Source of the DNA: Apricaphanius iberus
Lineage: Eukaryota; Chordata; Actinopteri; Cyprinodontiformes; Aphaniidae
DNA: 64,000 nt
Assembly (NCBI GenBank): GCA_028564705.1
Contig: JAPXFQ010001354.1
Coordinates: 41,624 to 105,623 of the forward strand
Direction: 5' to 3'
Program-made: the position numbers and the translations under genes
The notes under the pieces: model-generated
The model's input: the letters and a program-made list of their open reading frames with translations, nothing else
Database searches by the model: none
What the model was told of the DNA's origin: nothing
Shown: positions 36,276 through 54,640 of the stretch, piece by piece
Numbering within the stretch: position 1 is the first letter of the stretch
Layout of the letters: each line of letters starts with the position of its first letter

Positions 36276-36815
36276 CAATTCAATTCGGTTTATTTATATA
36301 GCGCCGTTTCACAACAGATGTCATCTCAAAGCACTTTACAAGAAGAGTTATTACAATACAATGTTTCATTTAGGAATTAGAGAACCACAGAAGATTGCGT
36401 CGTGACTTCTCAGCAATCCCTCACACTGAGCAAGCATGAAGCAACAGTGGAGAGGAAAAACTCCTTTTTAACAGGAAGAAACCTCAAGCAGAACCAGGCT
36501 CAGCATAAGCGGTCATCTGCAGAGACCGTCTGGGGTTTGGAGAAGGCAGCAGAGACACAGAAAGAGCAACATAACTGATGCAGAAGTTGGTAGCAGGACG
36601 TGGAGAACGTTCCTCCACTGCAATGCCATCTTAGTCAGGATCGTCAAGCAGAGAGGGTCAGGAGCACCGACTGTAGGAAGAGACTGCGAGAAAACAGGCT
36701 AGCACTTGAAATGACAACACATAATGCAGTTGGGGAGAAGTAGGAGAGAAAGTAGGAACTGACTCTAATTATGTCCTCCAACAGCCTAGCCTAAAGCAGC
36801 ATAGCTACTAACAAA
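36276..36815 (-). mobile_element. Repeat R1, copy B
   Basis: The same constant end (CAATTCAATTCGGTTTATTT) begins right where copy A stops, and the copy runs 540 bp to the truncated LTR at 36816. Four R1 copies in the window share this end but have different lengths. One (50317-50406) is flanked by target duplications, the pattern of 5'-truncated target-primed insertion. Confidence 0.8.
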
Positions 36816-37185
36816 ACATAATAAACAATGTATCTACCACGTAATTCATTCCCAAACATTCAGTTGGTCTCATAACATCTTACAGTACAGGTGTGCTTAG
36901 GCATTTACTCTTACCTGAAAAGGGGAGTAAATGATAAAAGAACCACGGACACGTTTTTCCCTCTGCTCAGACGTGTATTGAATGAGTCAGGAAAGCCATT
37001 CTCTCTCCTAAGGCACTCAGTTACTACAATGACTAAATTGAAATAAAGATTAGGATCCATTACACAAAATTACTGAAAACCATTTATAATCTAAACAGTA
37101 ATGAACAATTGTTTCTTAAAATCTATTAAATCATACATAATGGTAAATACAGTAAACAGTAATGAGGACATTTTATCCCATCACA
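36816..37185 (-). repeat. Gypsy 3' LTR, truncated
   Basis: Begins TGTGATGGG (37185 on the minus strand) and matches the 5' LTR (about 44657-45028) from there on. The last part expected before the element end is missing, and the sequence runs into R1 copy B. It contains one copy of the CCTGAAAAGGGGAGTAAA block near 36914. Confidence 0.85.
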
Positions 37186-37551: not shown

Positions 37552-39117
37552 TTATAGCTGTGGGTATGTACGGCAGGTTGGAGGTCTCACAAAAGGGTGC
37601 AGTGCAGCAAGACTGTAACACAATGGAGAACCTATTTTGTCATACCTCAATGTCTTCGGGGGTCGACGCAGTCTTTGTGGTCGCTGTGATCTGATTTCCA
37701 GTTCATATTCAGAAGTGTGATCAGTTGGGGCCATTGGTGTCTCTGCTTGTTCAGGTAAGTTTTCCATCTGAATGTTTTGAGTTTCGGGCTGCTGTTCATC
37801 TTCCAACTCAGACTGATGAGGTTCCACTACGTAGTCCATTGGTTGAGGTTCTGGTGCATCTGGTGCAACTCCAAGTGGACCATCTACAGATTGCATTGGC
37901 CGAGTTGATGAGTGAAACGGTGAATGAATGAGATAGTAGCTATCTTCATCATCGTCATCCTCTGATTCCTCTCTGGCTTCCTCCTTTGTTGTAGTTTTTT
38001 TCTTAGGTTTTGCAGGTGCATTTGTTCTACTTTCCAGTGGTAAGTGATCACAAGGCAGGATGTGATTACTGTGGAGTATCCTAGATCTGCCTTTCCTATT
38101 TTCTGGTCTCAGTTCATATACAGCGATATTGCTTACCACTTGTCGAACCACAGTGTGTATGGTGTCCTCCCAGTAATTCCTAAGCTTACCAGTACCACCA
38201 CGAGGAGTCAAATTTCTCACTAACACCCGGTCACCTGGGAACAACACTGAGCTCCTTACCTTAGAGTCATAGATTCTTTTGTTTCTTTGGGCAGATTTCT
38301 GAGCGTTTTTCTTTGCAATGGTGTAAGCCCGCTGCATTCCCTGCTTCCACTGTTCAACATAAGCATTGTGATCATGGCTTCCTGTTTCGGTTGGTAAGCT
38401 GAATAACATGTCAATTGGTAGTTTCGGGGAGCGGCCGAATAACAGGTAAAATGGTGAGAATCCTGTCACCTCTGTGCATGTACAGTTGTAGGCAAAGACG
38501 AGCTTATTCAGAGAGTCTTTCCAGTTTGTCCTGTCTCTATCAGTGAGGGTCTTGAGCATCTGAATCAATGTCCGATTAAACCGTTCGACTTGGCCATTCC
38601 CCTGAGGGTGGTATGGGGAACTTTTCGATCCTGCCATGTTGCAGTATTTGGAGAGCTGACTGAAAAGTTGATTTTCAAACTTGCCACCTTGGTCATGATG
38701 GATATGTGCTGGAAACCCAAACTTTAGAGCGTAATCATTGAAAATCTTGTCTGCTACTTTTTTTCCAGATTTTGATGTGGCGGGGTAGGCCTGGGCAAAT
38801 CGTGTAAAATGATCTACAATCACCAGTATGTATTCATAGCCACCTTTGCACCTCTCTAGATGGAGAAAGTCCACACACACGAGTTCAACAGGCTGTGTGG
38901 TAACAATGTTCAAAAGAGGAGCTGTTGTTGCCCTGCTAGTTTTTTGTTTTTGTTTCAGACAGGTACATTTCATAACATACTGCTCTATTTCACGCTGCAT
39001 GTAGGGCCAGACAAAGCGATCTCTGATCAAGCTTACTGTCCTTTCAGTGCACTGATGGCCCATCTGGTCATGCAGCTCCTTTAGGACCCTTGCTTCGTGT
39101 TGTTCTGGAAGGACTAA
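37552..39117 (-). CDS. Ty3/Gypsy pol: integrase
   Basis: Integrase joins the element's cDNA to host DNA. The open frame runs from just after a TAG at 39118-39120 to a stop at 37552; the ATG at 39063 is internal. In order: an HHCC-like zinc domain (HDQMGHQ...MKCTCLK, with the second Cys pair oddly spaced); the catalytic core with Asp in VCVDFLHLE, Asp in IHHDQGGKFEN and Glu in GNGQVERFNRT; a GPF/Y-like module (GKLRNYWEDTIHTVVRQV...SRILHSNHI); and an acidic tail (about 130 residues) with EESEDDDDEDS. All catalytic residues are present and there is no stop in about 520 codons. In the intact element it is cleaved from Gag-Pol. Upstream pol lies beyond a solo LTR. Confidence 0.9.
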   Translation of the reverse strand, partial: LVLPEQHEARVLKELHDQMGHQCTERTVSLIRDRFVWPYMQREIEQYVMKCTCLKQKQKTSRATTAPLLNIVTTQPVELVCVDFLHLERCKGGYEYILVIVDHFTRFAQAYPATSKSGKKVADKIFNDYALKFGFPAHIHHDQGGKFENQLFSQLSKYCNMAGSKSSPYHPQGNGQVERFNRTLIQMLKTLTDRDRTNWKDSLNKLVFAYNCTCTEVTGFSPFYLLFGRSPKLPIDMLFSLPTETGSHDHNAYVEQWKQGMQRAYTIAKKNAQKSAQRNKRIYDSKVRSSVLFPGDRVLVRNLTPRGGTGKLRNYWEDTIHTVVRQVVSNIAVYELRPENRKGRSRILHSNHILPCDHLPLESRTNAPAKPKKKTTTKEEAREESEDDDDEDSYYLIHSPFHSSTRPMQSVDGPLGVAPDAPEPQPMDYVVEPHQSELEDEQQPETQNIQMENLPEQAETPMAPTDHTSEYELEIRSQRPQRLRRPPKTLRYDKIGSPLCYSLAALHPFVRPPTCRTYPQL

Positions 39118-39684: not shown

Positions 39685-40880
39685 TTAAGGGTTAAGCCTG
39701 TCTAGCTCATGGCGCGAAGGTATCCCTCCAGATATTTTGGACTGCAACAATACTCTAATATGAGTGTCATCTTTTTGATCTAACTGTATGTTCTCCTGTG
39801 TTATTGAAAGTGAGTTTTCCTGTGTATCAAGCAAACTGTAAATAGAAATTGGCATTGACCAGGAGGCGTGTGACTCTGACTGCGTCTCTACCGCTGAAAC
39901 AGTTGCCGCTACAGCATCATAAGACATTTCTTCTGTGCACTCAGCCATCTAGTTCTCCACATCTAGTGGCATCCGGGACAAACTATCAGCGTCAATGTTT
40001 TCTCTGCCTGGCCGATACTTCACTGTGAAATTAAAATCGGCAAGCTCCGCGACATATTGACTCCCTGTAGCATTTAGCTTAGCAGTTGACAACACATAAG
40101 TTAAGGGATTGTTGTCACTGTAAACTGTGAAAAAGGGGGCATAGTACAAATAGTCTCGAAAATGTTCTGTGATGGCCCATTTAAGAGTAAGAAATTCTAA
40201 TTTGCCTGAAAGGAGATTGTAATTTTTTTCTGGTTCTGACAGAGTTTGTGATCCATACGCAATGACACGTAACTTTCCATTTTGTTTTTGATATAGTACA
40301 GCTCCAAGGCCTTTGCTGGAAGCGTCTGTATGGAGAACAAATGGGAGAGAGATATCTGGAAATGCCAGAATAGGCGGGTGAATTAGACAATCAATCAGCT
40401 TCTTAAGAATTTGTTGATGGCTTTCTGTCCACTCAATTGGAGTGTGAGATGACACTACTTTTTTATCAGTGCAGCTTTGTGACTTTTTCCCTCTACAGGG
40501 TGGTTGGCTTTGGTCTTTAACCGGCCCTTTGGTCAGATCATAGAGGGGGGCATCAATGCGGGAAAAGTCTTTAATGTACTGACGGTAGTAGCTTAAAAGT
40601 CCAAGAATTTGCCTCAACTCACCAACAGTTTTTGTTTTCTTATTTTTCAAATTCCGGACAGCTGCAGTATCTGAAGGATCTACTTTATTTTCCTCTGCTG
40701 ACACTATTCTTCCATGATAGCGGATTTCAGCCTTAAACAGCTCACATTTGCTAGATTTTAGTTTTATTCCATGTTGTCTGAGTCTTTGCAAAACTTTTCG
40801 AACATCACTGACATGACTTTCAAATGTTTTACTGAACACAAGTGTATCATCCAAATATGGTACACATTTTGTCCCTCAGC
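39685..40880 (-). pseudogene. Ty3/Gypsy pol: RT 3' part, RNase H and spacer
   Basis: From 40880 down: the RT catalytic YLDD ([11 protein letters not shown]), the thumb region [20 protein letters not shown], then RNase H with [18 protein letters not shown] and [12 protein letters not shown], ending at a TAG after SRMPLDVEN (39949). The frame continues past that TAG as a spacer (SYDAVAATVSAVETQSESHA) to about 39685. A frameshift near 40870 separates this from the first RT part. RT and RNase H copy the element RNA into DNA. With one shift and two stops this copy is recently disabled rather than ancient. Confidence 0.85.
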
Positions 40881-42429
40881 TCTTCGAGACACTCTTCCAT
40901 GCAGCGTTGGAAGGCTGCTGGAGCATTCATTGGCCCAAATGGGATCCTGTTCCATTCATATAACCCCCAGGGGGTGACAAAGTGGTCAAATGTTTACTGT
41001 CTTTTGCCACAAACCCCTGGTGGTATGCCTTTCCCTGGTCAATCAGAGAGAACATGGTGTTTCCACCAAGACCATCCATAATATCCTGAACTCTCGGAAT
41101 TGGCTGTCGATCAGGGTGAGTTTTTCTATTTAGTTCCCTGTAGTCAATGCAAAGACGCATCGAACCACACTTTTTCCTAACACAAACTACAGGGGAGGCA
41201 TAGGATGAGTGAGATTTCTCAATCCATCCATGGGTTATCAGATCAGTCAGATAGTCTTTCATTTCATCATATAATGGTTTAGGGACTGACATGTAGGTAC
41301 GGGCAACAGGTTCAGAATCTTTAAGCTCAATTTTTAACTGAAGCTTCTCTATACATCCAATATCATTGTCAGATTGAGAGAAAGAAGCGGACTCTTCCCT
41401 TAACATGTCACGTACAATCTGTCTTTGAGTCTCATTCAGGTGACTAAGATCAATAGGAGGATCCCAGGGTTCTGCAGAAGCATCCCTGTCCTTCTCATGG
41501 TGAGTCTGAATATGATTTACAGAGGCAGACAGCTGTGAATCATTACCTGCGTTGACTGGATACACAGATGTGACTGGCTGTGCTGTACCGATAACTACTC
41601 TTTTTGTTAACATGATGTCGCGATCTGTGGGATTTTGTACACTAAGGACAATATTAGGCTGAACACCTTTCTGTACCTTAATTAGGGTTTCACAAAACTG
41701 GAGTCCCTCTGGCCACAGTGGGTTCCCATCTGGTTCAAAAACCAACATGGTGTCCTCTTTAAATGGTCTGGCATTGATTCTGCATTTTACTTGAACAGTA
41801 CTATGGCTTGGCACACTAATTCTCAGACATGCTGTTTTAACTAGGTACTCACATGCTCGCTCCACACTTACTGCTTTAATGAATATCTTCTCATCCCCCC
41901 TCTTTAAAGTTGGGAAAGCCATTTTCACAGTTTTCAAAAGCCCCTCTTTTGCTTCATTGTTGTTCACTTCATCCTGACTGTTAGTAATAATGCGTTCAAT
42001 AACATTAAAACCAATAATGGGACGGGCAAGTTGGCTGCCTTTCATAACAAGTACTGGGACATAAAACTCTTCAGGACCAGCTTCTAGTTTAAACAACACT
42101 TCTACCCATCCTACATATGGCATCTCTGTGCCGTTAGCAGCCTCAACTTGTAGGGGGTCATGTGGGTTAACAATTTCTGATATGTCCCTCAGTTTTACAT
42201 CTGGAATGTTCTCAGCTTTCCACGCTTCATCAACTGCAGAAACTTGCGACCCAGTATCCCAGAGCGCTTCTGTTTTCCTTCGTTGTAGGTAGCAGCTAAT
42301 GAAACACTTCTTTCCCACCAGATCAACTACAGTAGGGTCTTTCTTTGATATAGTACTTTTCTTTTTTTCTGTCGTAGCTTTACATAGTTGTCTCTTTTCA
42401 AAGGTTGTTTGAGTGTTTGTGGGTGGCTT

Positions 42430-42552
42430 ACAGGTCTCTCTATGTTCTGGCCAATGACCCTCCTGGCACTCTTTGGAAAAGTAAAGCACCATTTTACACA
42501 CTGAACACTGTCCAAGCCCTTTTAATCCTTCCATTCCTCCACAACTGGCACA
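42430..42552 (-). other. MYND-type zinc finger at the start of pro-pol
   Basis: Reading CASCGGMEGLKG, then QCSVCKMVLYFSKECQEGHW and PEHRETC. This fits C-x2-C, C-x2-C, Y-[C]-S-x2-C-Q, H-W-x2-H-x3-C of MYND domains. One of eight zinc ligands is replaced (YF instead of YC). MYND fingers bind proline-rich peptides in host regulators such as SMYD and ZMYND proteins. A role in the retrotransposon is not known to me. Confidence 0.75.
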
Positions 42553-42578
42553 TTTTTGGGACCTCTTAGTGTGCGTGG

Positions 42579-44191
42579 TTACTCCATGTCCCGTGGGAGC
42601 AACCTTCCCTCGTTTAAAGGATACTCTCTTGTAGTGCTATGCATACTTTTGTTTCCTCTGCAGCCAGCCTGGAAATGTTCACTACTTCCACACCTGTAGC
42701 AGTGTTGGCAGAAGTTTTCTCCCTTGTCCTGGCATGCAAAGCACCTCGGTCGGGGACGTGACACTGGGTATCTTTGTGGAGCAAATCTCTGTTGAAATTG
42801 GGCAGTTCCTCTCATCGATCTTGGATCAGCAGCACATTGGTATTCCTGCAGAGGCCCACTCTGATGATGATGAATGGTTGCACCCTCTCTAGTCCCGGCG
42901 GTGAGCTGTGGATGAGTATATGACATATGATAGGGATAACCATATTCCGCCCCTTGGCACACTGCAGGTTGCGATTTCTTTTTCTCTTCTTTGTTGTGGA
43001 TGGATTCTCTGATCTGTGCAATCTCAGTTTTGAGGTCTTTTAACAAAACCATGTCTGCTTTAATTTCTTTCAGGTCTGACAGCAAATCTGTGGGGAGTGC
43101 CGCAACATGTTGTTCTTCCACTTGTTTCCTCTTATTACCTGTTTCACTAGACTGGACTGCATGCACACCAGTAGACCTCTGTGTTGTAGCCCTCTTCTTA
43201 TCCTGTCTTTCTTTATCATTAGCACAGGCAATATTTAGGACTTCTAGAAGTAACTCGTCTGAGGTATTTGGTTCCAACAAATGGGGTTGGAGATCAGTCT
43301 TTATGCAGTCACTTTGAAGGCCTGTGAGAACTGTGTGCATAAACATGCTTTGTACTAATGCAGGATCATACTTGAGACCAGATTCAGCCTCTTGGGAAGC
43401 AAACAATATTTTTTGTCGCAGATCCATTGCTCTAATTACAAAGTTCTGTGGTGTTTCCCTGCTGCTTTGCATTTCTGTGGTAAGTTGTTTGTATAACTCA
43501 GTTGCGCTTCTCTCTTGATAATGTGAACGAAGGATTCTCCTAAGAGTAGGAAGGGATAGATCATTCTTTCCTTCTAAGTAGCTGCGCAACTGTAGACCAG
43601 GAACTATTGCCCTAATAACAGCATCCACTATCTCTGATTCTGGGTAACCTTTGCTGAGACCATTCTCTATTTGGCGGGCCAAGCTGGAAAATGTTAGTCT
43701 GTCCTTTTGGCCAGGGTCACCAATTTGTCCTGAGATCTTAAAGTCTTTTCTCCATGAACTGCTGTTTATATAGGCAGGAGCAGCCTGGACCAATACAGTT
43801 TCAGTGTCCTTTGGTTTTTTGTTAGCCAGAATCTGCATTTCAGCTTCTTTCTGATGAACTTTAAGTTTTAGTTGTTCTAATTCTTTGCTTAATGTCTCCT
43901 GCTCCTCATCTTTCTTCTCTGGTGTGTTTTTTTTTACATCTTCCTGTACTGATTTTATCATGTCCCATAAATCCAACAATGTTGACATTCCCTCGTCTTC
44001 TAGTTGTCTCAGTTGATCACTTTCAATATGTTTGCTGATCAGGGAAACCAGATAATTACGACTTTTTCCTATTATATTTTCTTTGTTTGTTCCAGAAATG
44101 TCAAGGAAATCACATATTTTTATCAGTTGGTCGCTGGTAAATTGGAAGAGGGCTCCTTTAATTTCAAACTGTAGACTTTCCAATTCTGAAT

Positions 44192-44438: not shown

Positions 44439-44456
44439 ATCCCAGCGGTGCCTCCA
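44439..44456 (-). other. Gypsy primer binding site, tRNA-Thr type
   Basis: TGGAGGCACCGCTGGGAT on the minus strand lies two bases after the LTR. It is complementary over 18 bases to the 3' end of vertebrate tRNA-Thr(AGT), ATCCCAGCGGTGCCT plus CCA, as I recall it. From here to 44223 is the untranslated leader. Confidence 0.8.
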
Positions 44457-44458
44457 AA

Positions 44459-45028
44459 TGTAAAAGCCCTGAAAAGGGGAGTAAAAGATAAAAGAAACCA
44501 GACACGTTTTTCCCTCTGCTCAGACGTGTATTGAATGAATTAGCTCAAATACATACAGAGTCATCAAAAAGAAACACAAGTACAGACTGTCGTCTTACCT
44601 AGTTAGCATCATCGGCTACGAGCTAGCGGCTAACTGCGGCTAAGCCTCATTCAACAGCATCAAAATATAATAAACAACGTATCTCCCACGTAATGCATTC
44701 CCGAACATTCAGTTGGTCTGATAACATCTTACAGTACAGGTGTGCTTATACATAAACTCTTACCTGAAAAGGGGAGTAAAAGATAAAAGAAACCAGACAC
44801 GTTTTTCCCTCTGCTCAGACGTGTATTGAATGAGTCAGGAAAGCCGTGCTCTCTCTTAATGCTCACTAGCGCTAGACTCCCCCTGGTGGCCCTACTCCGT
44901 TACTACAATGACTAAATTGAAATATAGATTAGGATACAACCATTTCTAATCTAAACAGTAATGAACAATTGTTTCCTAAGATCTATTAAATCATACCAAC
45001 AGTAATGAGGACATTTTAACCCATCACA
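44459..45028 (-). repeat. Gypsy 5' LTR, 570 bp
   Basis: Starts TGTGATGGG at 45028 and ends CTTTTACA at 44459, next to the primer site. A 71-bp block (CCTGAAAAGGGGAGTAAAAG to CGTGTATTGAATGA) occurs twice within it, at 44468-44538 and 44763-44833, apparently identical. Confidence 0.9.
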
Positions 45029-46043
45029 CCGTTACACAACGCTTCTGAGACGTGTCTGATTTGCAGAAATGGTCCCACTGACTTTAATAGTGGCTATCAG
45101 CAGTCTATTACACTTCAATGACATTACGCGGTGCTTATGCATCCGGTGGAAAGGAGGGGTTAGGCAGTGCAACCATCACTGCTCCCAACAAACTATTAAG
45201 AACTAAGTGTTAACTTGCTGGCTGTTATTTCCACTGTTGTCTCATTTCAGGCTGTATTGACACGTGATAGTCCGGTAGAGTTGGTTTTGTTGGGTACCAA
45301 AATAGCAACATTGTTGCTGTTTTTATGTGGTGCGGTTTGCCTTCACACTGGCTTTTTACTATCAGAAAGTCCAGACCTTTAAGCAACAATTTTGCCTGCC
45401 CACCTGTGGTGGCACTAATGTAGAGCCATGTTTCCTCCTTCCGTTGGGGAACTTCCAGTACAGCTGAATGTAAACAAACTCGGGAAAGCAGCAGATTGTA
45501 GCTGTTTAAGGACCAATATGTTTTATTTGGCAAATGTGTCAGATAAATATTGCAGTAGCAACTCATGATGAACACAGAATGAGGCGGAGGACTATGAAAC
45601 ATTTTGTTTTTTATACAAGAAGGCTGAGGCATATCCATGTGAGGGGGTGTGCTATAAGAAGGACCACCTGAATGCAACGTCCAGCACAGATCGCCTCCTT
45701 ATAAAGACGTTGTGCAAGGTATGTACAAGATCCATGATGTATCTCTCCAGCATTAGTGGTTGTTTAGATTGTGTTTACTCAGGATGGCCTGATCAATAGT
45801 CTGCTTCCTGCTTTTGGTGCGACCTCTGTCTGTTTACCATTCACACATGCAATCGAACCGAAGCAGGGTTCATTTCCATCCAACCAAGACCACCATTGTT
45901 AGGCGGACTAGAGTTTGTTTGTTTGATCCGAATCAGAGTTCGATTGCCCATTCACACCTCCCGAAAGGAACCAGACTTTCTGAGCAAACGAACTAGAGTT
46001 TGTTTCAGGCGGACTAAACAGGGCTGGTGTGAATGCACCCTTG
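45029..46043. mobile_element. Unassigned sequence ending in a Harbinger-like MITE terminus
   Basis: From about 45800 the text CATTCACACATGCAATCGAA, GGCGGACTAGAGTTTGTTTG and the end GGGCTGGTGTGAATGCACCC TT (46020-46043) is typical of fish MITEs with AAGGGTGCATTCACACC ends. The left terminus was not identified. The minus-strand frame 45225-45677 has no recognised domain. Confidence 0.45.
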
Positions 46044-46139
46044 AATATTTTTTTTCCTATTATTCAATTCAATAATAATTGCAGCTCATACTATATAAAT
46101 TTCTTCAAGGAGTTTGTGTAAATGCTGATACCTGTGGGC

Positions 46140-46215
46140 AGGAGGGATCTTCTGTATCAGTCTGTGTTACAGCGAAACTGAAGAAGCCTCTGACTTAAGA
46201 CACTGTTGTAGAGCT
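46140..46215 (-). pseudogene. L2-like LINE C-terminal scrap
   Basis: The minus strand reads QRLLQFRCNTD, stop, YRRSLLP, matching the last block of L2 ORF2. Confidence 0.55.
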
Positions 46216-46388
46216 TCAAACTTCTGCTGACGTCGGGTACTTTCGTCAGCAGAGGAGATGAGCAGCTGAGATCTCGCGAGAGCTGTGCGTAAGTAAACAT
46301 GGCGGTATACTGGTAAAACAAACAATGTCAGGTAAAATAAGCCAATAACTTTGAACCAAATGCAGTGAATGTGTATGTCCCTTTAAAC

Positions 46389-47344
46389 CAGTGTTTCTGA
46401 ATTATTTTTTGCTATGCCCGCCCTAGAGAAGAGATTTATTTTCACGCCCCCCATCCCCCCACCCCAACCAGATTGATATGTAAAAATATTTAATTATTTA
46501 TTGATACAAACCGGCACCAGCATACTGCATATACTATATAGTGATTATGAAAAAAGATTAATTAAATAAGATGCAACTACTTCAAATGGTTGCATTAGGT
46601 TTTTTAGGTCTTGACACTATTTCCCAGTTCAGTTTATTAACTCAGTTGGTAACATTTAATCCAGACTGCTCGGTCTGTGTGATGCTCAGAACAGAAACAG
46701 TTCAAATGATTCACTGGGATTTGCATTTTTAAACTAATATTGAATATGAAAGCTTTTTAAAACTTTGTTCATTGATAACCTGTCAGCTTCATCAGTTTAT
46801 CACTTTTCAAGCTACATAACTTCCTCACCTTCACTGTTTTGAGCTCTGCAACCCTATGAAATCCATTTATTGTGTTAGAAATGCTCTCCATTTAGATTTA
46901 TCTGAATTCTGCTTTTTCCATTCTAGTCATATTTTATAAACCAAAAAGTGTGTAATTGTGGTGACTGAAAACAATTGACCAAATACCACATTTACTGTTA
47001 TTCACAACTATTTTCACAAATCTAACAGTGCTGTAGTTCAAGTATTTTCCTGTCATTTTTAAAGATCTAAAACATCCTATGTGCAAAACGAATAATCTCA
47101 TATTTTTCATAGACCCTATTACATAATATCTTTCACCACCTGATCAAGTCTCATAGAGACCTGGAAAAAGTAAATATTCATATTACTTCCATATTTTTAT
47201 TTCCTAGTCCTTCCCAGACTCCAGTGAAATCAATGTATGTCAGTGCTTTTATGTTTATCGGTCTTTCTGCAGGGCTTCGTTTGCGTTTTTTCCCTGACAG
47301 AGCTCTCGTTTCTTCTTGTTTCTAATGGAAACCTTGGTTTTTAA
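46389..47344 (+). mobile_element. hAT terminus followed by unassigned sequence
   Basis: CAGTGTTTCTGAATTATTTT then GCCCGCCCTAG resembles the common hAT terminus CAGTGTTTCTCAACC. No opposite end or transposase was found; 46450-47344 is AT-rich and unassigned. Confidence 0.4.
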
Positions 47345-48715
47345 TTCAGAGAGTTACCAGGCAGGGATGTCCACTTTCTCCCTCCCTGTTTGCTATTTTA
47401 TTAAACCAGCAGCAGCAAATTAATAATATTAAAGTTATACAATGCAATGAAATAGAACATAAAATTAGTATGTATGTGGATGAATTACTACTTTTTCTAC
47501 AGCATTCACAAACTCTCTCTCTCTCTCTCTCTCTCAGGTAATTGAGTTGATAAAATCTTATTCAAGAGTTTCCGAATATTCCATAAATTGGTTGAAATCT
47601 ACAGTCCTTCAGATCAATTGTTCCTTCCAGAGTCCCGGTGTGCAACACCGGTCAGGAAATATTACATATTTACGAATCCATATCTCACCAAGACTGGCAG
47701 ACATATCAAAGCTAAAGTATGTCCCACTTTTAAAAAAAGTGGAAGATGATCTGGCTAGATGGAAATCCCTTCCGATATCACTTATTGAAAGAGTAGCTAC
47801 AACAAAAATGATGGTTTTGCCTAGAATCAATTATTTATTCTCAATGATCCCAAGCAAACATCACCTGATTAGTTTAGATCTCTGGACTCTTCTGTTTCTA
47901 AATTACTTTGGTAAGATAAACCCCCACGTATCAGCTTGGAAACACTGCAGAAGTCCAAAGATAAAGGAGGTCTAGACCTACCAAACTTCCGTCATTATTT
48001 CTTAGCCAACAGGCTCCAAAACATATCAAGATGGTCAAAACACATTTCTCTCGATGAGTCCTGGATAGATGTTGAACCAAACTGCTATCTAAAATATGTA
48101 AAACATTAAATACATAAGACGAATCAATAGCCCTTCCTTTTTCAAAATGGGAGATGGACTTGTCAATCTCATTTGACCAAAACCTCTGGTCTCAGATTTC
48201 TTTAAGAACCTTTAATTTTGTTTAAAATCCTACTCTGTGATTAATACAATATAAAATCCTGCATAGAGTACATTATACAGGCCAACGGATGTTCAAGATG
48301 AGTTTTACATCGTCTAATACCTGTTTACAGTGTAAAAGCAATATATCAGACAATTATATTCATGCTATTTGGTTCTGCCCACCTGTTAAGAAATTTTGGC
48401 ACCAGATTTGTGAAGACCTATCAAAGTGTCTGAAATGTAATATCACACCTTCTCCCCCAGTTTGCTTGCTGGGAAATTGAGATGAAGTTATATTTATATA
48501 TATCATAGATGCAAAGTCGATGCAATTAGTTCACATTGCATTATGCATCGCTAAGAAAAATATCCTCTTGAATTGGAAAAATAAAAATGCTCTTAATGTT
48601 AATAAGTATAGAGATCTCCTTCTGGATTACATCAGTCTGGAAACGGCTTCTGCCTCCACATCTGATCAATCTTTCTGGTCTCCCTTAATCAGCTCCATCA
48701 CCTAGAGGGGGAAGG
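47345..48715 (+). pseudogene. L1/Tx1-like LINE ORF2 (plus copy)
   Basis: Begins inside RT motif B (RQGCPLSPSLFAIL), so it is 5'-truncated. It then has MYVDELLLFLQ in place of the usual YADD-type catalytic motif (near 47475), a (CT)n tract at 47509-47535, and the open block VEDDLARWKSLPISLIERVA to about 47975. After a deletion near 48110 it resumes with SSNTCLQCKSNISDNYIHAI and MQLVHIALCIAKKNILLNWK, stopping near 48703. The catalytic motif is mutated and several frames are used, so it is inactive. Confidence 0.85.
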
Positions 48716-50806
48716 TCCCTCGATTTTGTTCTGTGGGACACGGTCGTTGATGTGGAGCTTTAGGGTCGGGGGCGTCTATGAGGGGTCCTTGCGGTTGGGG
48801 CGCTAGGTGCCATGACCCTCACCTGGGGTGGGGCTTTGGGTGGGGACTCCTGGGTGGGGAATCCTAGTGACCGCATGCGGCGCCTTAGGGGGGTTGCGCT
48901 GGCGGACACAGGTTACTGGCCTGGTGCTGTGCTGCTCTGGGGTGGGTCTGGGCTGGGCCTGGGGCTCTGTGGCGCTGCGCCCCTCTAGCTGGTGTCGTCA
49001 CCGGAGCTTGGCCTCTGCCGGCGGCGACGGCTGGAGGGTGTGTGGGCGACCAGTAGACGGCGGGCGCTGCTGCCTTTTCCATCTCCCCGGGCTGGTTCTT
49101 GTTGCCGGCTCCCCTTGCCATACCCACTCTTCAGGGTGTCTGAGGGTGGGGCCTCCCACCCCGGGTGGATCGTGCTGAACATGGGTTCCTATTGGAGTCG
49201 GTAGGGGAGCTGGCTCCCTGGGGATGGCATTGTGTCACCCCAGTCGTTTCATCCCCATTCCTGGATGCCTCTCTCCACCTGCTCCTTCATTATACCATTC
49301 ACACTGGGCCTTGGGGCATGGGCACGTAACTGGGGAGCGGGGAGGAGTCTCCGTCTTCGCTGCCTGGTGGCAGCCTGGGTCTCAATTTTAATTGTACAAC
49401 TTAGGCACTTTCACTCTCAACATTTACATGAGAGACATGTAGGGACCTGGCAGTGGATACAACTCAGCGCTGGAGGCGGAGCCCTTTAAACAGCCTCGCC
49501 TCGGGTGCCGGTGCCCACTGCTTAACTGCATCTACACACTGAGGGCCCGGAGTGGGAGATGGGGGTGCCTGGCAGTATTCCCATGTCTCACCTCTCTGTC
49601 TGTTTTAAGTACACATTAGCTGGTAGATCTGGGTTTCCAGGTCCTGGCTGGCCACTGCCTGGGGAAGGCGTACATGTGCTGCGGCTTTTACTGTGGCTCC
49701 GTGGCGTTTGGGGGGCGCGGGGGGCTGGGTTGTTGGCTGTGGAGATTGGCCCGGGGTGGCGGTGGCGTCTGTCGTCCGTGGGCTGGCTGCTGGTCCCTCC
49801 TGCCTTGCAGCGGCGGCAGGGAGCCCTTGTCAGGGGCCTGCAGGGGGGGCGGGGCGCCTATGATCCCCGTGGCCTCCGGGTCCTGGGCTGGGCCTTACCG
49901 GGCGTAGCAGGTTACCAGCGGAGCCCGTGGGCCCGTCCCTTCAACCTGCAGCAATGCGGCTGCTGGGTGTTCTCCTTCCATCTGTTTCTGTCTTGGTGTG
50001 CGGTCGGCCCTGCTCTGGTCCGCTTGTGGCCCCTACGCTCTACATCTCTGACCTCCTTCGTGTCTGCGTCGATTCCTGTAGGACAGATTGACGGCTCCTT
50101 ACACCAGCTATCAATCACTTACATGGGGGAAGCTTATTTACACCTGCATGCTCACACACACACAGGTGTTGGGACATTGTTGTGTACGGACATAATCTTG
50201 AGCTGAGGTTATCGTCAATAGATAGTTGGTACCAGGAGCTTACCAGAAACATTAGTGTTGTGTTCATTAATCAATTTTTGTGTGTCGTGAATGTTTATTT
50301 CTTAGTTCATATTACTCAATTCAATTTGATTCAGTTTATTCATATAGCGCCAGTTCACAACAGATGTCATCTCAAGGCTCTTTACAAGAAGAGTTATTAA
50401 AATACAATTACTAGATCCATTTAGTTAAAGTTGTTCTGTTCTATTGGTTGTTTTTGTTTGTTTTGTTTTTCTCACTTCTCTGCCGTCCAAAAGAGGTGGA
50501 GGACTGGGATGTTTTCTTGTGTTCTTTGATTTTCTCCCTATCTTGTATCGTCAGTTCACACTTCTACCGGTTCTGTTTCTCTTCTTCATCTACTTTCTTT
50601 CTTTATTCCTTCTTATCTCAATTTCATGTCCATAACTTCAAGAAATTAAACCCACAGTAATCACTAATAAAGATTTTTCATACATATATATCAAGTGTAG
50701 TACGATATCAAAGCTGTATTGCTCTGCTTAGGAAAGTAAATCTGTTGGGCTTGTACTTGGTACTCGGACGCCAATTCTGAGTAGCAAACTGCTAGACAGG
50801 ACACGT
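48716..50806 (+). mobile_element. L1-like LINE 3' region (plus copy), G-rich
   Basis: About 1.4 kb of strongly G-rich sense-strand sequence is followed by an AT-richer tail with TAATAAAG near 50663. The match with the minus copy ends at 50806. G-runs such as those at 49709-49729 could form quadruplexes, as in mammalian L1 3' UTRs. Open frames (48828-49178, 49559-50206) come from base composition. Confidence 0.8.
50317..50406 (-). mobile_element. Repeat R1, 90-bp copy with 6-bp target duplications
   Basis: CAATTCAATTTGATTCAGTT to ATTAAAATACA is the constant end of R1. ATTACT flanks both sides (50311-50316, 50407-50412). The minus LINE copy lacks it at the same site (ATTACTAGATC), which confirms a clean insertion. 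Confidence 0.9.
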
Positions 50807-50904
50807 TAAAAAGATAAATAAAAAAAGAAGATATCGACAGCACATTAATTTTAAGAGAGAAATTTTAAAAGAGGAACAGATAACGTCCGTCGCTTTTTTT
50901 AAAA

Positions 50905-50965
50905 AAGACACTGTTGTTGAATGATAGTCTCCAAAAGAGGATGTTGAGGGTTGTCCATTATTACC
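50905..50965 (-). pseudogene. L2-like LINE C-terminal scrap
   Basis: The minus strand reads VIMDNPQHPLLETIIQQQ, the conserved L2 C-terminal block. 50966-51160 is unassigned. Confidence 0.6.
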
Positions 50966-51160
50966 CATCTGTGATCTTTGTACAGTTTTTGGTTTGCCGC
51001 TTTTTGGAAATAGACTTATGTAAATTACAAATAAATATGATTATTTTGTAAATATTTTTACGTATCCTGCTCAGTGACACATTTCTTGAACTGGAGTATG
51101 TTATTTTTAATAACTTAAAAGTATTGTAACGATGTTATTTTTCCCTTACAATCTACAGTA

Positions 51161-51865
51161 GGGGAAAAAGTATTTGATATGCCATCCATCTATCCATCTT
51201 CTTTCGCTTATCAGGAGTCAGGTCGTGGGGGCAGTAGCCTAAGCAGAGAGACCCAGACTTCCCTCTCCCCGGCCACTTGGGCCAGCTCCTCGGGTGGATG
51301 ATTTTTAGATAATCAATATCCATTTTATTGCATGTTTGATGTGGTCGGGCTCGGCCCTGGTACATGTGGAAAGAAAAACAGAACTCAATATTTTGGTACA
51401 GAAACGTTTGTTCTTCTGTAGTTCTTCCCAAGGTTTGCACACATTGCAGAAGTGATTTTGGCCCACTCCTCCATACAGATCTTCTCCTAAGCGTCCAGAT
51501 TTCGCGGCTGTCGCTGAGCAACAACGACTTTCAGGTCTCTCCAAAGATTTTCTATTGGATTCAGGTCTGTAGACTGGCAAGGGCACTCCAGGACCTTAAG
51601 ATGCTTCCTACGTAGCCAGGCTCCATGGGAAGCACCTGTCTGTGTGATTCGGGTTTTTCCCATGCTGGAAGACCCAGCCACTACTCATCTTCAATGCTCT
51701 TACTGAGGGAAGGAGATTGTTGGCCAAGATCTCACAACAATTGACCCTATCGATCCTTCCCTCATTACGGTGTAGTCGTCCTGTACCCTTTGCAGAAATC
51801 ATCCCCAAAAAATTATGTTTCCTGCTCCAAGCTGTACAGTTGGGATGGTGTTCTTTGGGGTTTTA
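51161..51865 (-). mobile_element. Tc1-like transposon relic with nested LINE end
   Basis: The left terminus CAGTAGGGGAAAAAGTATTT is a known fish Tc1 end. On the minus strand the transposase part shows [10 protein letters not shown] (second catalytic Asp replaced by Gly) near 51670 and [17 protein letters not shown] (Glu) near 51545. The N-terminal half is gone. At about 51183-51300 a LINE 3' end is inserted (minus-strand PRSWPKWPGRGKSGSLCLG and DKRKKMDRWM, with a (GATG)n-type tail). Confidence 0.8.
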
Positions 51866-51888
51866 CTCATCCTTTTTTCTTTTTTTTT

Positions 51889-51925
51889 TCTGTGGGTTTA
51901 ATTTCTACAAGTTATGGACATGAAA
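51889..51925 (-). mobile_element. Short L1-like 3' end fragment
   Basis: TCTGTGGGTTTAATTTCTAC then AAGTTATGGACATG matches the 3' tail of the L1-like LINE seen at 30247-30275. Confidence 0.6.
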
Positions 51926-51966
51926 ACGAGAAAACAGAAAAGACGATTGAAAGAATATTAAGAAAA

Positions 51967-52147
51967 AAATATAAGCATGTCCAGAAAGTATTACTGACTA
52001 TTGTCCACTATAGTATCAGTTTTGAGCTTGATAACTTTGCCTGAATTAAAGCTAAGCTACAAGAGGCAAGGGAAACGTTACCATAGCAACACTTACGCAC
52101 ACTTGACCCAGTAAATCTCGGTTACAGAGTAATTTGAGGTTACAGAC
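51967..52147 (+). repeat. X-box repeat, copy 2
   Basis: Same-orientation copy of 1092-1263, including the X-box at 52077-52090. Flanking sequences differ from copy 1. Confidence 0.85.
52077..52090. promoter_or_regulatory. Perfect X-box (RFX-type) motif, copy 2
   Basis: GTTACCATAGCAAC, identical to 1202-1215, while neighbouring bases of the repeat have diverged. Confidence 0.5.
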
Positions 52148-52279
52148 TTGGGTACATTCTTTCTTGTGTTAGAAATCAAATTCCTATTTCATGAATCATA
52201 AAGATACCACTACCTTTGTCATCGGAAACTGAATTTGAATAACTGCTTTTAAAATGGGAATCTGAATATATCTCATTGG

Positions 52280-52280
<1 letters not shown>

Positions 52281-52311
<31 letters not shown>
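52281..52311. repeat. (AT)n microsatellite
   Basis: About 30 bases of alternating AT. Confidence 0.95.
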
Positions 52312-52316
<5 letters not shown>

Positions 52317-52319
52317 TTT

Positions 52320-52680
52320 TAACAAAACTAAGTGGCAAAATCTAACAATTTTCCCTTTACATCAGTACAGGTCATCTCAGCATGCAGGATTCTCAACATC
52401 TGCTTCAGCTCTGGTGATGCTGTGGTCCCTGAGGATGAGTTTGAATAGCAGAAGATGAGGAAGAGGTGGTTTGGAGGCAGTCAGCGAGGTTCCCTGGTGG
52501 GACCAACTGTCCTGTTAATATATTTTATGGCAACTGTAGATTGAGAAATTCAAAGTTTTTTGATGGACGATGCAGTGGATACTATAATGAAGCTACCCAG
52601 AGCACTCTCTGCAGACCTTTCTGTATGATATCGCACTTCTATGTCACAGCTCCTCATCTAAATCTGATTTTTCTTAAGTA
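52320..52680 (+). mobile_element. Relative of the exon-like part of the 31249-33187 transposon
   Basis: Follows an (AT)n tract and AACAAAACT, as at 31786. Its frame then reads SSGDAVVPEDEFE and ends ALSADLSV, stop, matching SGDELEDK and TLSADQPV, stop, at 31820-31945. It is probably a decayed copy of the same element or captured exon. Confidence 0.4.
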
Positions 52681-54640
52681 GATCCAGCACATCTACCTGA
52701 TACTTTCTGTTTAATCTATTAAAGTTTAAATCCAGTAATCCAGCAAACGTTAATTCAAGTTCATACTGTACGTAAAAAATATAAAATAAGTTTTCCTTCT
52801 CTAATTATTTTATGTCCTTTACCTATTGTTTTACTGTTTTTATTTACATTCATTTGACATTATGTAATTGTTCAGAGTTAGCTTTATGAATATGACTGCA
52901 ATGACTGAAATCACACAATACGTTTTGACTACATATCTTCTACCAATGAACTCAGTATAAGCATGTCTACAATGTTTTATAATATTCTGCACTTAAAACC
53001 AAACTGTAAATACACAATATGAAGCTCTTTCTGGTGGCATTTAGATGCTAGCGCGGAGAGGCTATATCTGGTCCCGTAAATATACCAGTAGTTAAGAGGT
53101 CTGCTACAGCTTACCTTCAGATGTTCATCCTTCACTAAAACATGCTATATTACTGTTAAAGGATAAACTAATGGTCCCAAACAACCCATGTGTAGATGTC
53201 AATCTGTCTCCTCTCTGCCTGATATCCAATGGAAAATTAGCTGAATGACAGAGCTGATCTAAACTACTTATTTTAAAGACGTTTTAAATAGTAGGGCAAC
53301 TTGAGTGTAGATGTTTGATATGAGAATCAACCGTTTTTCCCTGGGCAACTTAATGATTCAGCATTTCATTTTTTTATTCTGATCTGAGAAAATCTGTGTG
53401 TAACCCAGTTGGTTGTGCTTCTTGCCAGAAACTTGTAAAATAGTCATTTGATCAAAAACTATAATTAAATCAAACTGTCTCAGTTAAATACATACTAAGG
53501 GGTAAAGAAGTGTATACTAATTTTGCAAAAACAAGAAACTACCAAACATTTTATTAAATAATATAATGAAAATGTGATGTATGCCTTGCTGTTCCCCCAA
53601 TCAAATTGTAAATGTTGGAATAGTTTACAAAGACAATTATTATTAAAGAATTCACTTTTATGCTAACAGTGTGGTGATATTCTTAGAGATTGAGAAAGGA
53701 AGAAACATAACATGGTTATGTTATTGTTAATAATTCTTAATTTTTTATACCCTCTACTCCATAACATGATTGCCAATTATAATTTTATAAAACAAGTGCA
53801 AATGAAACGTACATATCAACGTTGCAAAGGTTATGCTGCTCAAGTACTCAAATATCAAATATCTTGATTCAGCTCTTATTACTTTTGGAGGACAAAAGAA
53901 GAAACCAACATAGTTTGTTAATCCTGTTTATGTCATATGCTTCAGCAGGTCGATGTAGTCAGACTTTTGTGAAAAACATAAAATAATTACTCATCTTCAT
54001 TATCACATTTTGCTTTACTGAGTATATCAATTTGTGCTTCAATATCTGATTAAATAGTTAAAGACTAATGGTACAGCGACCAGGAACACACCAAATGTAT
54101 TTAAAAAAAATCGCAAATAAAATTGGTAAAATATATAAAATGTATAGCCTATTTTAAACAGTGCTGAATATTCCTAAAAAGTGAAATTAGACAGACTGAA
54201 ATAAAACAGTCTCCAGCTCATCAAGCTTGTCTGGACCCTCCTGCTCACATTAGCTAGCTGCAGCTAAACTACAGCTCATTAGCTAATTAACAAAATAAAA
54301 ACTGGCTGCATTTAACGCTTCACAATGCTGAAATTGTTTTAATTTCATCAACTTCCCAGAGAAAATGATTCTAAAACACTGAAAATGAGCTGCGTTCCGT
54401 GACGAGGGTGCTGCTGTTTGGAACTATTTGCAGCTGCATGTACCCCATGACTTCGAACTCTCATGGTTCTGGGCTTGCTGGCGACGGTGACCTGATTGTC
54501 AGACGTCATTGCTGTAGAAACCTGTGAATCAAACGGTCTGACCAATGGGGGAGGACCTGCCCACTGTGAAACGTGTGTGTTTAAATTGTTCAACCCAAAA
54601 AAAATAGACTTCAAACCTTTTTTCAGTTTGTTTAAAAGAT
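52681..54640. other. Unassigned AT-rich sequence
   Basis: No gene or repeat recognised over nearly 2 kb. The minus frame at 54348-54647 has no known domain. Confidence 0.45.

Follow-up and report, generated by a model that had tools for sequence, protein, structure and literature searches.

A MYND-type zinc finger at the front of the pro-pol frame in a Ty3/Gypsy lineage of fishes and, in part, corals

The minus strand of a 64,000-nucleotide stretch of the genome of the fish Apricaphanius iberus (the window; contig JAPXFQ010001354.1, positions 41,624 to 105,623) carries a Ty3/Gypsy long terminal repeat (LTR) retrotransposon, and an earlier note made from the letters alone had pointed to a MYND-type zinc finger fused to the front of its pro-pol frame. 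This raises the question of whether the finger is real, whether it is peculiar to this copy or a regular part of a lineage of elements, and what it might do in a Gag-Pol protein.

The finger and its place behind a frameshift signal

A profile search of the pro-pol frame (569 aa, window 42636-40927), one of the checks proposed in the earlier note, recovered the Pfam zf-MYND domain (PF01753) over all 39 positions of the profile (1 to 39), with an E value of 2.6e-9 and 37.4 bits against a cutoff of 22.7; a Pfam scan of the whole genome recovered the same finger at 40.5 bits. The motifs on which the note had built its case (CASC, CSVC, YFSKECQ, and HWPEHRETC) all lie in this one open frame, and the interval given in Table 1 runs from the first to the last ligand, exact to the codon. 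Counting in the sequence gives seven of the eight zinc ligands, as had been claimed: the fifth is Phe instead of Cys (codon 42480-42478), so that the full C4-C2HC set is not present in this copy. The finger is placed as described there, in the -1 frame behind the slippery heptamer at the end of gag and ahead of the protease, and is thereby fused to the front of pro-pol. A MYND finger in the pro-pol frame is thus confirmed; the Pfam score above the cutoff, together with the finger-bearing relatives described below, rules out a chance motif.

A joint model of the finger and the protease drew protease-type entries and no MYND among the fold matches listed, and for that reason we modeled the finger alone. 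With the finger of a related element in the same genome (L007), all 50 of the Foldseek matches shown were entries of MYND proteins, and the finger is accordingly predicted to adopt the MYND fold. In its ligand pattern, predicted fold, and candidate peptide groove (Y52, Q58, and W62 in the window frame), it resembles the MYND domains of SMYD1/2/3, ETO (CBFA2T1), DEAF-1, ZMYND10, ZMYND8, and BS69/ZMYND11; unlike them, it sits in a retroelement Pol, and the window copy is without the fifth ligand. SMYD2 is the best solved match both by sequence and by Foldseek, and an exon of SMYD1 (L033) tops the 10 host MYND loci that we fetched when these are scored with the element profile (44.5 bits). At most, these similarities offer a lead toward a SMYD-type gene as the source, which some 40 residues would hardly resolve on a tree.

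The region upstream of the finger has the makings of a predicted -1 programmed frameshift signal, with a slippery site, a short spacer, and a pseudoknot. Of 30 loci fetched from this genome, 21 have the T_TTA_AAC heptamer upstream of the match, and it is absent from L008, L012, L020, and L025 to L030; the element of L008 (L087) has GTTAAAC at that position, and that of L025 (L063), which is without a finger, has GGGAAAC in a fitting frame. Seven nucleotides after the heptamer begins a putative H-type pseudoknot (9-bp and 5-bp stems), the final strand of which encodes the residues directly before the first Cys of the finger. Over nine sequences, 95.2% of the cells are paired and five pairs are changed on both sides; shuffled alignments matched the covariation score in 0 of 500 cases, the paired cells in 3, the two-sided pairs in 2, and the further pair types in 37. 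Every slid register was far worse, a comparison that favors the unslid register because the pseudoknot was derived from the same nine sequences.

Distribution, gain, and loss of the finger

We searched the 1.2-Gb genome of the fish with a 195-aa query comprising finger and protease and obtained at least 150 scored matches among 309 candidates. Of the 30 fetched loci, 18 have the finger motif in the same place (L001 to L011, L013 to L017, L023, and L024), counting Cys or Phe as the fifth ligand and allowing stops. It is damaged in six more (L012, in a His ligand; L018, by a stop; L019, in one Cys; L020; L021; and L022), and none was found in L025 to L030. Over finger and protease, the families are 44 to 55% identical to the window, and by our grouping eight carry the finger now or did so formerly (those of the window, L007, L008, L009, L013, L018, L019, and L022). 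The genome-wide Pfam scan yielded 39 MYND matches, which by position, namely, whether a match of the finger-protease search lies alongside, fall into 24 in elements and 15 in host genes. In the families of L009 to L011 and L013 to L017, the copies are at least 98.98% identical and keep all eight ligands, with L016 having a stop directly upstream of its finger.

The missing fifth ligand of the window copy has a narrow distribution. Among the fetched loci, Phe at this position is confined to L001 to L004; in its place, Ser occurs in L021 and Gly in L020, both of them decayed. Most relatives have Cys, including L005, which is 88% identical to the window in protein sequence and has a stop within its finger, and a database protein, P0001, which is 71% identical over its piece of pol. 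The restriction of Phe to L001 to L004 and the Cys in L005 and P0001 indicate a late change in a decaying subfamily, and on these sequences the lost ligand is best read as a decay mark of that subfamily.

For relatives in other genomes, we used two profiles, one built from five families (A1) and one from 10 more distant families (A2); both include the finger, which somewhat favors finger-bearing matches. The former matched 332 proteins and the latter at least 614, with 120 listed in each case. A finger profile matched 125 of the 234 collected database proteins at an i-E value below 1e-3, as well as all five frames given from the A. iberus genome. Among the 99 proteins of at least 1,300 aa, 74 match at this threshold, 1 matches weakly, and 24 do not match; the last begin, with Met in 23 cases and with Val in P0216, only 5 to 63 aa ahead of the protease motif and are therefore uninformative, as any finger would fall outside them. 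Most of the database matches come without an organism name. Named fish carriers are Syngnathus (P0064, whole finger), medaka (P0002, nearly whole), and Labrus and Tachysurus (P0008 and P0035, back part). Among corals, ligands 3 to 8 are visible in the stony coral Oculina patagonica (P0130), ligands 5 to 8 are visible in Acropora cervicornis (P0235), and even less is visible in Paramuricea (P0262). In the annotated proteins P0130 and P0235, gag runs directly into the middle of the finger; the coral gene models probably contain false introns over the frameshift site, and the coral fingers are apparently partial because the models skip from gag to mid-finger.

The finger thus occurs in several families of its own genome and in other fishes, as the earlier note had proposed to check. 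The idea of an element-specific domain survives insofar as the finger is fused to pro-pol; it is not private to one element and has long been common property of a large Gypsy lineage. Nor is it present in every relative: it is widespread and missing from some branches. Its presence at the same place in several fishes and, partly, in corals makes it look like a durable component of these elements, kept by selection. A single capture or a chance likeness in one functionless element, which might be supposed from a dead copy that is one ligand short, is refuted by this distribution and by the purifying selection described below, and we consider it extremely improbable.

To place gains and losses, we used trees made by a quick method, with a weak backbone. 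The first, of 99 protease-reverse transcriptase (PR-RT) pieces (29 with the finger, 14 without, and 56 in which it would not be visible), spreads the finger-bearing rows across many branches of a 74-row group, requiring at least five changes; no finger was seen among the few rows outside this group in which it would be visible. The second has 80 rows and includes more distant members; it omits database rows with unseen N termini, samples 25 of the new finger-bearing rows, labels loci of the fish genome with a short visible N terminus as finger-less, and requires at least four changes. Five finger-less elements (L065, L081, L083, L072, and L084) fall inside the finger-bearing group in the second tree and beside it in the first. 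One old gain followed by several later losses is the favored, not proven, history suggested by these trees.

A possible trace of such a loss is seen in L069 to L071. These have no finger, and their frame aligns to a profile of finger and linker from the position of the conserved Trp onward (EHRLLC...) with 50.9 bits; the finger-less L067 aligns from the linker onward only, with 39.8 bits, so that the vestige itself contributes little more than 10 bits. L069 to L071 retain the last His and Cys ligands, and L066 aligns from the same point without the Cys. This vestige suggests a probable loss of the finger's front part in that branch. In these four elements and in L079, the visible parts of gag and pro-pol share one open frame (1,970 aa in L066, 1,437 in L069, 1,967 in L070, and 2,025 in L071), and it appears that this finger-less group lost the frameshift along with the front of the finger. 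As L069 to L071 are more than 99.8% identical to one another, loss of the finger did not stop amplification.

Constraint and possible function

In a tally of 130 rows, whose selection with the finger profile favors the ligands, the eight ligand columns are 98 to 100% conserved. The groove residues stand out in the same rows (Tyr, 98%; Gln, 99%; Trp, 84%), and most other columns vary. Codon models fitted to eight loci gave ratios of nonsynonymous to synonymous rates (omega) of 0.156 (finger), 0.133 (protease), and 0.169 (linker between them); the last value is not to be trusted, given a tree length of 37. Holding omega at 1 and kappa at 2 for the finger lowered the log likelihood from -910.4 to -943.0, a cost of 32.6 units, and the comparison of nonsynonymous with synonymous change that the earlier note had suggested thus points to purifying selection, at synonymous sites that are near saturation, with several pairwise dS values uncomputable. 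In five of six pairwise comparisons (clearly so in four), the linker has a larger nonsynonymous distance than the finger; the finger in turn exceeds the protease in all six. Together, these values indicate that the finger is constrained, more weakly than the protease and, judged by distance, more strongly than the linker, from which the codon model alone does not separate it.

The Tyr, Gln, and Trp belong to the usual MYND consensus; because they are common to MYND domains generally and specify no partner, their conservation is permissive evidence only. BS69, ETO, and DEAF-1 bind their peptides via these strictly conserved non-zinc residues (PMC4742278 and PMC3555993), the equivalents in BS69 being Y540, Q546, and W550 (PMC4742278).

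We lean, with some reserve, toward a conserved accessory protein-docking domain of the Gag-Pol of one old animal Ty3/Gypsy lineage, which is the best fit to a unit that is folded, conserved, and groove-bearing and that stands, flexibly linked, in the Gag-Pol frame. Such a docking module would be made only in the minority of molecules that arise by the -1 frameshift, and a short partner peptide containing proline and leucine would fit into its Tyr-Gln-Trp groove. The partner would most likely be a host protein, brought to the assembling particle or the preintegration complex; alternatively, docking might hold Gag-Pol itself at either place. The finger would be useful rather than essential, given that finger-less families have multiplied too. 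Chromatin proteins, which the earlier note had put forward, are a guess at the partner, as are corepressors and cochaperones. A more specific version, tentative and rather doubtful in our estimate, is that of an ancient host-factor adaptor derived from a cellular, perhaps SMYD-like, gene, by which Gag-Pol would recruit a corepressor, remodeler, or cochaperone with a proline motif and so steer target choice or silencing. Self-docking via PxLxP or PPPL motifs within the element was considered and rejected: none occurs in the four frames of the window, and 2 of 110 linkers have one, where shuffles reach 4. Retroelements choose sites and partners mostly via integrase tails and Gag; if docking holds true, the finger would be a new point of host contact between Gag and the protease, carried by the minor Gag-Pol product only. 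A single genome with recently multiplied families both with and without the finger offers a system in which this could be tested.

The main rival to docking is a purely internal, structural role: the finger would be a folded spacer or a domain on the protease side that controls the packaging of Gag-Pol, protease dimerization, or the timing of cleavage with no host partner, much as has been proposed for the G-patch of betaretroviral proteases, which would act on enzymes of the virus itself. The finger lies 36 to 60 aa before the active-site motif of the protease in the 64 fingers, out of 75, for which that motif was found, it is made together with the protease by virtue of the -1 frame, and its omega is near that of the protease. 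A linker predicted to be disordered and lacking conservation, however, predicts no fixed contact with the protease, the groove Tyr and Gln match the zinc ligands in conservation, and the finger-less families still retain the protease motif; on balance, we regard such a role as somewhat unlikely. More improbable is a second nucleic acid-binding unit that would aid the zinc region of Gag in RNA packaging or reverse transcription. The position close behind the CCHC region of Gag would suit it, the element fingers tend to be basic (mean net charge of +3.8; n = 75), and DNA binding by the MYND domain of SMYD3 was suggested in a report cited in PMC3555993. Yet the five host MYND fingers compared, out of 15 host matches, are equally basic (+2 to +6) and the window finger has a charge of -1, so that charge, by which the element fingers do not differ from those five, was discarded as a sign of RNA binding; moreover, the groove is known for protein binding (PMC3555993 and PMC4742278).

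The element, its state, and its known relatives

The element shows the gag, the PR-RT-RNase H-integrase order, and the flanking LTRs of a Ty3/Gypsy retrotransposon (Table 1). Pol is broken into three frames (42636-40927, 40875-39949, and 39117-37552), and the window copy is therefore dead. The LTRs are repeats of each other, spaced 7,849 nt apart and matching in four collinear pieces of 91.5 to 96.8% identity, with one further match to an internal repeat. The 5' LTR also repeats the 3' LTR of a duplicate copy on another contig (C919), which is longer than that of the window; its boundary at 44459 is the end of this match as well, and its other end was judged from the sequence. No clear target-site duplication could be read at the element, the 3' LTR of which is cut. 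The protease of the window is weak in Pfam (E value of 0.062, below the cutoff) and clear by predicted fold in the relative L007, and no gag family was among the Pfam matches of the gag frame.

Table 1. Features of the element in window coordinates
Feature	Position	Strand	Remarks
5' LTR	44459..45036	-	Ends taken as TG...CA; element reads right to left
gag frame, 557 aa	42579..44252	-	Open frame; ends in Cys/His region including a CCHC knuckle
Slippery heptamer T_TTA_AAC	42612..42618	-	gag zero frame; gag and pol overlap here, pol in -1
H-type pseudoknot (predicted)	42558..42604	-	Stem 1, 42604-42596/42585-42577; stem 2, 42592-42588/42562-42558
MYND-type zinc finger	42430..42552	-	Residues 29-69 of the 569-aa pro-pol frame; Pfam PF01753
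Variable linker, finger to protease	42295..42429	-	pLDDT of <50 in L007 model; low conservation
Retropepsin-like aspartic protease, DTG motif	41992..42294	-	Residues 115-215 of pro-pol frame
Reverse transcriptase, start	40927..41300	-	Pfam RVT_1 below cutoff; PDB sequence match to Ty3 RT; frame broken thereafter
Reverse transcriptase, end, and RNase H	39949..40875	-	Second frame; Pfam RVT_1, RT_RNaseH_2, RT_RNaseH
Integrase, zinc-binding and catalytic core	37552..39117	-	Third frame; Pfam Integrase_H2C2, rve
3' LTR, incomplete	36812..37185	-	Apparently cut at 36812

Known accessory domains of Pol include the chromodomain in the integrase of chromoviruses, the G-patch after the betaretroviral protease, and dUTPase; like these, the finger is an extra, partly dispensable addition to a standard Pol, and to our knowledge MYND is not among them. 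Precomputed Pfam annotation already pairs MYND with RT, RNase H, and integrase domains, and the architecture is therefore on record, though apparently undiscussed. Among the matches listed in the open-access literature, a scope outside which subscription journals and Repbase reports lie, we found no description of a MYND finger in the Pol of an LTR retrotransposon; the term has other senses in the accessible parts of PMC12350819, PMC12147562, and PMC3562529. In its LTRs, gag, predicted -1 frameshift signal, and PR-RT-RH-IN order, the element is like other fish Ty3/Gypsy elements. By length only, it resembles Barthez of puffer fishes, to whose clade it perhaps belongs: the Pol frames of L007, L011, and L013 have 1,545 to 1,568 aa versus 1,563 to 1,580 aa in Barthez3 to Barthez5, and Barthez5 is 7,544 bp long, versus the LTR spacing given above (PMC11117352, available text). 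That text does not contain the word "zinc" and so mentions no such finger.

The window copy (L001) and that on C919 (L002) are 99.97% identical over 9.5 kb of flank and 99.5% over 5.8 kb of element, pointing to one insertion seen twice or to a duplication; L003 and L004 are likewise closely similar to each other. The matching flank extends over window 44501-54000, and the sequences diverge at the 3' LTR (36812), as in an allelic contig, a duplication, or an assembly join. The end of Gag (42660-42743, minus strand) has an unusual zinc region, CxxC-x(6-8)-CxHC-xx-C-x4-H-x4-C, which also occurs in L063, L070, L087, P0045, and P0056, finger-less families included, and is a possible extra zinc site ahead of the CCHC knuckle. 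Adjoining the 5' LTR, an 18-nt stretch (44439-44456, minus strand) resembles a primer binding site, presumably for a threonine tRNA. Outside the element, an open frame of 163 aa on the plus strand (47484-47975) has a likeness to what we take to be the end of a LINE reverse transcriptase.
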